From IMG/VR virus record IMGVR_UViG_3300042449_000696, positions 1-23,635 of that record: a stretch of DNA of 23,635 bases. The stretch is one strand, 5' to 3'. The notes under the pieces are model-generated. The model was not told the origin of the DNA, searched no databases, and saw nothing but the letters and a program-made list of their open reading frames with translations. The position numbers and the translations under genes are program-made. Below, piece by piece: positions 14,715 to 17,786 of the stretch (within the stretch, counting starts at the first letter, position 1; each line of letters opens with the position of its first letter). Source of the DNA: a virus.

Positions 14715-15110
14715 TTACATTTTAATCTCATTTTCAACAATTTTAAATACCTCATAAGCTTCTTCTTCGGCCCATGTAATAATTTCTTCTTCTTTATCTA
14801 CATCAAATTTATGTAATGCAAATGATTGATGCATTAACTCATGCATTATTAATCCAAAAGTACTAACTGAATCTGTACATCTTGAAAGATTAATAAATAC
14901 AAATCTTGGATCATCATCAGTATACTCACCAGATTCTTTGGGTATAAAATTACTCCAACCTGCTATATAAGCGCTTTCTGTAGTATTTTCATGATTGTTA
15001 CAATCTTGGATATTAAGACCATGCATTTCTGTCACATTAAAATACGTGAACACATCACAAGGATAGTAACTCAATAGAAGCACGTAGCTTCCTCTAATTA
15101 TTGTAATCAT
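14715..15110 (-). CDS. Putative zinc metallopeptidase (HExxH)
   Basis: A 131-residue protein with FGLIMHELMHQSFALH (85-100), a classic HExxH zinc motif (HELMH, 90-94), followed by an acidic helix EEEIITWAEEEAYEVF that could supply a third ligand (E109 or E116). The N terminus has a short hydrophobic run (YVLLLSYYP) but no clear signal peptide. Size suggests a minimal metallopeptidase domain; the substrate is unknown. The first ATG (15110) is used, giving a 17-bp overlap with the upstream membrane protein gene; a TTG at 15134 would lengthen that overlap and is less likely. Confidence 0.7.
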   Translation of the reverse strand: MITIIRGSYVLLLSYYPCDVFTYFNVTEMHGLNIQDCNNHENTTESAYIAGWSNFIPKESGEYTDDDPRFVFINLSRCTDSVSTFGLIMHELMHQSFALHKFDVDKEEEIITWAEEEAYEVFKIVENEIKM

Positions 15111-15297
15111 TCTTTCTTGTTTCTTTGTAATCAACTATAAATCCAACTGCCACAATAATATTCATACCCATTGACATCATCACCTCATGAATATCAGCAT
15201 AAACTGAAGTCATGAGATGAATATGTCCAATAGACCAAAAAGGTATAGCCAAGTTTTGGCTAATCCATATCAGTGTATATTTTATAAAATGTTTCAT
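15094..15297 (-). CDS. Small membrane protein, about 2 helices
   Basis: A 67-residue protein with two hydrophobic segments, near residues 7-29 (YTLIWISQNLAIPFWSIGHI) and 43-57 (MGMNIIVAVGFIVDY), and a charged C terminus (KETRKNDYNN). Its ATG overlaps the stop of the upstream gene as ATGA, and its end overlaps the metallopeptidase start by 17 bp. No family is recognised. It belongs to the membrane cluster 14074-15485. Confidence 0.65.
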   Translation of the reverse strand: MKHFIKYTLIWISQNLAIPFWSIGHIHLMTSVYADIHEVMMSMGMNIIVAVGFIVDYKETRKNDYNN

Positions 15298-16181: not shown

Positions 16182-16457
16182 TTAAATTAATTCTAAATCA
16201 GCCTCTAAGACTTCTTCTCGTTCTTCTTTCATATTAAGAACTCTTTCATCTAATGGAATAAATCTGTCAGCATCATAGTATTCATATGGAAAACAGTCAG
16301 CAGACATCTGTACCTCTTTAAGAAGCACACCATATTTGTTGTCTTGCAATCCCATCTTTACTATTTTGATAATAGTATAAGTTTCACCTTGTTTAATCCA
16401 CTGTTCTACAGGGACTTTAGCAGGTTTATTACTACTGTCAATGCAAATTGCCTTCAT
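16182..16457 (-). CDS. Conserved Bacteroidota-phage hypothetical protein
   Basis: A 91-residue protein with the pattern KAICIDSSNKPAKVPVEQWI, then GETYTIIKI, and a CFPYEYYDADRFIPLDE segment, followed by an acidic tail. I have seen very similar small beta-rich proteins (an SH3- or OB-like core) in Bacteroidota phages and genomes, of unknown function. Its start overlaps the ClpS-like gene by 20 bp, and the acidic tail (EEREEVLEADLE) is unusual. Confidence 0.72.
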   Translation of the reverse strand: MKAICIDSSNKPAKVPVEQWIKQGETYTIIKIVKMGLQDNKYGVLLKEVQMSADCFPYEYYDADRFIPLDERVLNMKEEREEVLEADLELI

Positions 16458-16692
16458 CTTGTTCCATTGTTACTTTGAGACCTTGTGATTGAAGAAACTC
16501 TAACATAGTTGATATCTGTGCCCAACATCCATGTTTTACAGTACACTGACCAGCAAGATCAGCAACCAATGCACATTGTTCTGCTTGTTGAGGTTCATGT
16601 CCACAATATTTAATTAAACATGCCATGACATAAGCAAAACTATGTTCATCATCATTGTATAATATGAGTCTGTGATCTTCTGGTAGTTCCAT
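16438..16692 (-). CDS. clpS: ClpS-like protease adaptor (N-end rule adaptor homologue)
   Basis: An 84-residue ClpS-like protein. ClpS delivers proteins with destabilising N-terminal residues to the ClpAP/ClpCP protease. The phage protein aligns without gaps to E. coli ClpS: LILYNDDEHSFAYV (9-22) matches the LxNDDxxxxxxxV core, and EPQQAEQCALVADLAGQC (33-50) follows the pattern of Bacteroidota ClpS. N13, D14 and D15 of the pocket are kept. The residue that matches E. coli His66, which contacts the N-degron amino group, is Asp45. The flexible N-terminal extension used for handover is also nearly absent. A decoy or altered adaptor is possible. It lies between the SF2 helicase (2-bp gap) and the 91-residue gene (20-bp overlap). 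Confidence 0.82.
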   Translation of the reverse strand: MELPEDHRLILYNDDEHSFAYVMACLIKYCGHEPQQAEQCALVADLAGQCTVKHGCWAQISTMLEFLQSQGLKVTMEQDEGNLH

Positions 16693-16694
16693 AA

Positions 16695-17786
16695 TTATAA
16701 TGTTAAACCGTAATCTTTCCAGAGTATTTTAGTTTGATCAAATCCCTCCAATGCTTCTTTAACCCACTTCTCATCAATTGTATCCATATAACATAGAATA
16801 TGTACAATTGCTTTATCATCTGGATTAAGACGGAGTAACCTACCAATCCTTTGACTAGCTTTTCTCTCATTACCATACGCATGCATAATGATACCTTGTC
16901 TAAGATTAGGTATGTTAACACCCTCATTCAATTGAAGAACAGTAGATAATTTAGTTATCTCTCCTGATTTAAACATCAATAAATTCTCTTCTGAATCTTT
17001 ATTACCACTGTGATAACTATATTGAGATAGTCTATCAGCTTGTGCTTGAGTATTAGCAAATACAATACATTTAGTATTAATGCTTTCCATTAACTTCTTA
17101 GTATATTTCTCTTTGCTTGGATACTCCATCATTGCTTTCATTCTCATAACTCTGAGCATGTGCATGTTACCAGAACCTACATCAATTCTTCTAGACCAGT
17201 AAATATAGTTATCATACTCTGAAGTAACAAAAGATTTGTTTTTCATCACTGCTTGATAACCTTTACACTTATTCAATTGAATCTCATGTACAATGATCTG
17301 ATAATCATTGAGTATTCCATTCTCAATAGCATCATCTGCTTTGAATGTATACACTACAGGACAGAATTCTTGTACTAATTTACCTTTCTCTGAATAATGT
17401 CTTTTGGGTGGTGTACCAGTTAAACCCAGTACCTTTCCTTTATACAATTGCAAAAATCCTCTATGACTATCTAGTATTGAATGACATTCATCCAAACAAA
17501 CCATATCATAATCATTAGGATTGTGCTTATTTAAGCTGAGATAAGTAGTAAATACAATTCTACCTAATAAATGATGCATATTAAACTTCTCTGCATCATC
17601 TTTCCATGACTGGAATATTGATTTCTTTGGTGCTACAACTAACACTTTCATTAACGGAGTTGTGTTTCTGTCAATGTAATTAAGACCAACAAGAGTTTTA
17701 CCAACTCCTGTGCCTAATACAACAGAACATCTCTGTTTACCATCAGTTGCAGATAGTGCTTCTAATTGGATGTCTTGTCTATCCAT
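16695..17786 (-). CDS. SF2 DEAD/DEAH-type helicase (UvsW-like)
   Basis: A 363-residue superfamily 2 helicase. Motif I is GTGVGKT (25-31), motif II DECH (99-102), motif III LTGTP (122-126), motif V LNEGVNIPN (287-295) and motif VI SQRIGRLLR (311-319). It is short compared with most SF2 helicases: the N-terminal Q-like region is MDRQDIQLEA, directly at the start. Phage enzymes of this kind (for example T4 UvsW) unwind branched recombination intermediates or R-loops, which would fit the Sak4/SSB system. The start at 17786 has the ATTATG context and follows the HNH gene by 4 bp. Confidence 0.87.
   Translation of the reverse strand: MDRQDIQLEALSATDGKQRCSVVLGTGVGKTLVGLNYIDRNTTPLMKVLVVAPKKSIFQSWKDDAEKFNMHHLLGRIVFTTYLSLNKHNPNDYDMVCLDECHSILDSHRGFLQLYKGKVLGLTGTPPKRHYSEKGKLVQEFCPVVYTFKADDAIENGILNDYQIIVHEIQLNKCKGYQAVMKNKSFVTSEYDNYIYWSRRIDVGSGNMHMLRVMRMKAMMEYPSKEKYTKKLMESINTKCIVFANTQAQADRLSQYSYHSGNKDSEENLLMFKSGEITKLSTVLQLNEGVNIPNLRQGIIMHAYGNERKASQRIGRLLRLNPDDKAIVHILCYMDTIDEKWVKEALEGFDQTKILWKDYGLTL

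Follow-up and report, generated by a model that had tools for sequence, protein, structure and literature searches.

A short ClpS protein of crAss-like phages with recurrent exchange between histidine and aspartate at the N-degron α-amino contact

The window analyzed here, which is an entire IMG/VR virus record of 23,635 bases, encodes a genuine ClpS-fold protein of crAss-like phages that is derived from the ClpS type of the Bacteroidota. It carries aspartate at the position of E. coli His66, and this aspartate has recurred within the ClpS fold: it is also seen in the eukaryotic UBR1, UBR2 and Ubr1 proteins, in Leptospira ClpS1 and in three cellular ClpS proteins, L218 (from G110), L237 (G198) and L241 (G049). 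The flexible N-terminal extension, which is the handover element of canonical ClpS, is absent from the window protein. Judging from these sequence features, we give a probability of about 0.4 to the reading that the phage protein binds N-termini and acts as an inhibitor or competitor of the host Clp protease.

The identity of the protein is well established by both sequence and structure comparisons. It matches the Pfam ClpS family over residues 4-75 (PF02617; E=4.6e-13; score 49.2 bits, cut-off 23), no Pfam family scores better, and the weaker matches from NCBIfam and PDB sequences are in agreement. An AlphaFold2 model with a pLDDT of 92.5 recovered 38 ClpS chains at E<=0.001 in Foldseek searches, with ClpS structures as the best matches; it superimposes on E. 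coli ClpS (2wa8) with a TM-score of 0.88 and an rmsd of 1.3, and on the M. smegmatis and E. coli structures together with TM-scores of 0.86-0.88 and rmsd values of 1.0-1.6. The alignment to E. coli ClpS is free of gaps, such that N13, D14, D15, A44, D45 and G48 of the window protein correspond to N34, D35, D36, V65, H66 and G69. Thus, the preliminary description of this DNA, which had proposed a phage ClpS homolog with a gap-free core alignment, Asp45 in place of His66 and Ala44 in place of Val65, was correct on each of these points. The counterparts of N34, D36 and H66 in the ClpS of Caulobacter touch the α-amino group of the peptide (PMC12493166). The gene is under purifying selection, with a median dN/dS of 0.09 at a median dS of 0.93 in the clade of the window ClpS; across the 91 distinct copies listed from the same locus, Asn13 and Asp14 are 97% conserved after weighting, and the pocket columns are less variable than the others (mean entropy 1.00 vs 1.53 elsewhere).

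The window protein shares with Bacteroidota ClpS the fold and the conserved motifs (NDD...F..V...L..C.H...QAEQC......G.C.VK.G) at 37-46% identity, and differs from it in having Asp in place of His (the latter found in 80 of 80 Bacteroidota proteins of our first set) and 12 residues ahead of the N34 position rather than the 24-37 of almost all Bacteroidota proteins. The Bacteroidota-like character of the EQC...G.C pattern, already pointed out in the preliminary description, was confirmed. In the tree, the clade of the window ClpS lies inside the Bacteroidota-type ClpS proteins and the UBR domains are placed elsewhere. Capture of the gene from a host, as had also been suggested, is backed at the level of the phylum only, because no cellular relative above 46% identity was found in 395 genomes of the phylum of the Bacteroidota reference genome.

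The clpS gene occurs in a fixed order that is widespread in a group of crAss-like phages known from metagenomes of environmental origin: a helicase gene, clpS, and an overlapping gene for a protein of about 91 residues (Table 1). The helicase matches Pfam ResIII with 54 bits and the DNA helicase family PHROG_16 with 155.8 bits. The 91-residue gene was present and overlapped clpS in all 74 testable ClpS loci, and both genes were absent together from three loci (L260, L261 and L325), where the gene with a possible helix-turn-helix adjoins the helicase; a fourth locus, L285, is cut by the end of the contig. Those three loci represent natural empty sites of the two genes. The orphan protein displays a conserved core followed by a stretch of variable length; its C-terminal end is again conserved and is acidic (e.g. 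EADLELI). The family showed no confident match in Pfam, PHROGs or PDB, with one of 20 members matching DUF4528 at 1e-4, and a single-sequence structure model of the 91-residue neighbor reached a pLDDT of 36. Elsewhere in the window (14715-15134, minus strand) lies a gene for a small protein with an HExxH motif (HELMH), possibly a zinc metallopeptidase, which is present in eight of 34 loci of the window clade.

Table 1. Positions in the window of the clpS gene, its neighbors and the codons discussed in the text
Feature	Positions	Strand	Remarks
SF2 helicase gene, immediate upstream neighbor of clpS at a distance of 2 bases	16695..17786	(-)	Locus marker and probe
clpS, 84 aa, ATG start, ORF intact	16438..16692	(-)	PF02617; AlphaFold2/Foldseek; dN/dS 0.09
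Codons 13-15, Asn-Asp-Asp = E. coli N34 D35 D36, conserved part of the N-degron site	16648..16656	(-)	
Codon 17, His = E. coli Thr38 position	16642..16644	(-)	Also in UBR1/UBR2/Ubr1 and Leptospira ClpS1
Codon 44, Ala = E. coli Val65 position	16561..16563	(-)	Commonest in His copies too
Codon 45, GAT (Asp) = E. coli His66 position, N-degron α-amino contact	16558..16560	(-)	Gap-free alignment
Orphan 91-aa gene, start within clpS, overlap of 20 bases in the window	16182..16457	(-)	Proposed partner
144-aa gene, possible helix-turn-helix	15742..16176	(-)	Adjoins the helicase at loci lacking clpS and the 91-aa gene

The affinity of the carrier phages was read from G001, a relative of 117,768 bases with the same locus and a ClpS 85% identical to that of the window, rather than from the 23.6-kb window itself. 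This genome is almost complete, since its two ends fall within genes that adjoin each other in the window. Its terminase, portal and major head protein are crAss-like, and the first two match those of cr55_1, csAssE-Sib and Cellulophaga phi17:2. The portal (L204:9844-12585) has its best tblastn match, at 33.6%, in the Leptolyngbya phage Lbo-JY46, which is listed with a cyanobacterial host, ahead of crAss-like phages of Bacteroidota. The crAss-like phage type and the type of ClpS both suggest a bacteroidotan host. The relative encodes a single ClpS; searches for ClpP and Clp_N found neither in it nor in eight further records with the locus (104-123 kb), and thus any Clp partner of the protein in the tested crAss-like records must be that of the host. 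The Leu/Phe transferase was not found in six records of the window clade.

Our first viral set divided cleanly at site 45: the 35 close relatives of the window ClpS all have Asp, encoded by GAT or GAC in every case, and His is found in each of the 84 viral copies that are more distant. Those Asp copies of this set that were sampled for the tree group into one clade with a support of 100/100 within the Bacteroidota-type ClpS. The viral His copies, though of the same ClpS type, occupy a different gene neighborhood, with none of the neighbor genes of the window near them, and hence the locus itself was probed with the adjacent helicase (best 80 of 276 matches) and the downstream 91-residue gene. 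At the helicase-probed loci His45 is kept in most ClpS copies among the matches listed, and these His orthologs rule out that the His phages are a separate lineage with Asp being the rule at this locus. Across the 91 distinct locus copies listed there are 51 with His, 39 with Asp and one with Asn, counts in which the share of Asp is inflated because several searches began from genes of the window itself. None of these copies has Tyr, Arg, Pro, Leu or Gln, each of which is one base away from the His codons, which suggests that Asp is favored rather than just tolerated.

The history of the site was reconstructed on a ClpS tree from which column 45 had been left out. On it Asp needs eight changes, and at least six His/Asp changes are forced by well-supported branches, although single branches are unsure on account of the short alignment (83 columns); the AU test rejects a tree in which Asp arose just once among the phage copies (p=6.4e-5). 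The helicase tree gives a count of nine, an overestimate owing to apparent recombination between clpS and the helicase gene, and the ClpS tree was therefore relied upon. The helicases that accompany window-type ClpS proteins are scattered over four positions in the helicase tree, an observation suggestive of such recombination. The exchange can be seen at close range in the L294/L303 pair, which has CAC in one member and GAC in the other at codon 45 in genes with 94% DNA identity, 12 of their 15 differences over 252 bases being synonymous. Thus, the conservation of the His-to-Asp change that had been asked about holds in the window clade (35 of 35) and breaks down at the wider locus, where 51 of the 91 copies listed keep His. 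The preliminary description had regarded phage copies with the histidine as a sign of a chance variant or sequencing error; such copies do exist, yet Asp recurs at least six times, and the 35 uniform copies of the window clade rule out both error and chance for Asp45.

Two further traits belong to the whole locus family rather than to the Asp copies, namely the short N-terminus and Ala44. In all 91 locus copies listed, exactly 12 residues lie ahead of the N34 equivalent; the corresponding stretch measures 25-28 residues in other phages, 24-37 in almost all Bacteroidota and 33 in E. coli. At site 44 the weighted frequencies in the same 91 copies are 0.74 for Ala, 0.20 for Thr and 0.06 for Val. 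As both traits are also found in His copies, they did not arrive with Asp: the missing extension that had been described is real (12 vs 33 residues) but marks the phage family as such, and Ala44 is likewise present but separate from Asp. His17 is common alongside Asp45 in the window clade; the idea that the two change jointly as a UBR-like pair is unsupported by independent pairs (median p=1). Two ClpA-contacting residues of E. coli ClpS, Glu82 and Lys84, are replaced by Gln and Ser in the window ClpS, and these positions are variable in Bacteroidota too.

The closest parallels for the Asp state come from cellular proteins. Leptospira interrogans ClpS1 resembles the window protein in having Asp62 in place of the His and, at the sites of Thr38, Met40 and Met62, His, an aromatic residue and Ala, respectively; it is distinguished from it by a 22-residue N-terminal domain and by being a cellular paralog beside a normal ClpS2 (PMC12493166). 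It binds the ClpA N-domain with a Kd of 0.44 µM and inhibits the degradation of SsrA substrates, with N-degron binding not being reported (PMC12493166). Two of the cellular Asp proteins, those of G198 and G049, are second paralogs beside a His copy and, like Leptospira ClpS1, combine His at the Thr38 position with Tyr at the Met40 position. The N-domains of UBR1, UBR2 and yeast Ubr1 likewise have Asp at the aligned site (AIDKEG, TVDRDG and RIDGEG), and their Thr38 position is occupied by His; unlike the phage protein they are part of a large ubiquitin ligase, and their Asp is of independent origin. The ClpS-like N-domain of the UBR family reads type-2 N-degrons, and a D251N/H254Y double mutant of the ClpS/N-domain of S. 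pombe Ubr11 loses type-2 recognition (PMC4447728). From their spacing, D251 and H254 are probably the equivalents of D35 and T38.

On the phage side, the ClpS proteins of the huge phages LR745206, LR756502 and LR756504 are comparable to that of the window in being phage-encoded and Bacteroidota-like. They differ from it in keeping the His and, in LR745206 and LR756502, in having an N-terminal stretch of 15-17 residues. These genomes (L039, L040 and L041, about 635-642 kb) each encode one His ClpS, two to three ClpP and no Clp_N. They account for all ClpS matches in INPHARED, in which no crAss-like record has a window-type ClpS or the 91-residue gene. For a jumbo-phage ClpS (AMM43882.1), a role in bringing targets to the ClpAP of the host has been put forward (PMC7824862), and gp708 of Atu_ph07 is a phage-encoded ClpS (PMC6102473). 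We found no literature linking ClpS to crAss-like phages. As far as we found, then, phage ClpS and the Asp state are each already known elsewhere, with phage ClpS having been noted but apparently not studied.

E. coli ClpS without its extension keeps its binding to ClpA and to N-degrons and loses delivery. To our knowledge, such a loss of delivery through a short N-terminus is known for E. coli ClpAP only. The E. coli extension is threaded into the channel of ClpA, where pulling on it brings about handover of the substrate; delivery is inhibited when the extension is blocked (PMC9663308). Given that the site for the N-terminus is kept and the extension is lost, the phage protein is best read as a non-delivering binder and a competitor of host ClpS. 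It would dock on the N-domain of the host ClpA or ClpC unfoldase and would bind N-terminal hydrophobic residues; with no extension for the unfoldase to pull, it would hold its substrate without delivering it. It may thereby protect N-degron proteins in competition with host ClpS, or alter the set of proteins that host Clp degrades. The exchange between His and Asp may tune which N-termini are bound, or how tightly, in a site that stays functional, as suggested by the membership of the Asp-bearing UBR1 and UBR2 in a family that reads type-2 N-degrons. Against docking on ClpA or ClpC, which is a prediction, stands the replacement of Glu82 and Lys84, at positions that also vary in Bacteroidota. 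The orphan 91-residue protein is predicted to be the partner of the phage ClpS. More tentatively, we propose that the two genes, a handover-deficient ClpS and its orphan partner, might constitute a module controlling host N-degron proteolysis, in which selection would repeatedly switch between His and Asp and so change the N-termini bound; such a module would be a phage N-degron anti-adaptor or a split adaptor.

The main rival of the competitor reading is a split adaptor, which we regard as rather doubtful and in which the 91-residue protein would replace the extension in trans and bring chosen host or phage proteins to host Clp, with the sets of N-termini differing between the Asp and His forms. 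The strict pairing of the overlapping genes (74 of 74 testable loci, with three roomy loci lacking both), the conserved C-terminal end of the orphan protein behind a stretch of varying length and the role proposed for the jumbo-phage ClpS (PMC7824862) are all consistent with this; on the other hand, gene neighborhood alone does not demonstrate contact between the proteins, and the orphan protein has neither a confident model nor a confident family match. It is unlikely that the protein is an ordinary substitute ClpS delivering N-degron proteins to host ClpCP, a reading in which the ClpC of Bacteroidota would need no long extension and His and Asp would be interchangeable in the pocket. The conservation of the site under purifying selection and the occurrence of both residues in ClpS-family N-recognins would agree with such a role, but the constant 12 residues ahead of the core depart from the lengths found in nearly all Bacteroidota and in other phages. 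A reader repurposed away from Clp, binding the N-terminus of a phage protein from the same operon, appears improbable: it would suit the fixed place directly after the helicase, the overlap with the orphan gene, the unkept ClpA contacts and the failure to find Clp parts in the phages, but the contact positions vary among the Bacteroidota hosts as well and the N34/D35 site is conserved. Neutral drift, with His66 dispensable in the phage family and Asp tolerated without functional meaning, is very improbable, for although site 45 changes often among close relatives, it does so only between His, Asp and a single Asn in the 91 copies listed despite other one-base options, and the window clade is uniform for Asp at a dS of about 0.93.

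In conclusion, the crAss-like phages possess a widespread ClpS family that has lost the part used for handover and has exchanged a key recognition residue many times, and the strictly linked orphan gene provides a concrete candidate for its partner. Close pairs such as L294/L303 constitute a natural His/Asp test, by which both the interference of phages with N-degron proteolysis and the effect of Asp on specificity become directly testable. The specificity of the Asp pocket also bears on the ClpS-based binders of N-terminal amino acids used for protein sequencing (PMC12874005). For the phages themselves, the repeated flips between His and Asp suggest that they retune or block the protein-disposal system of their hosts.
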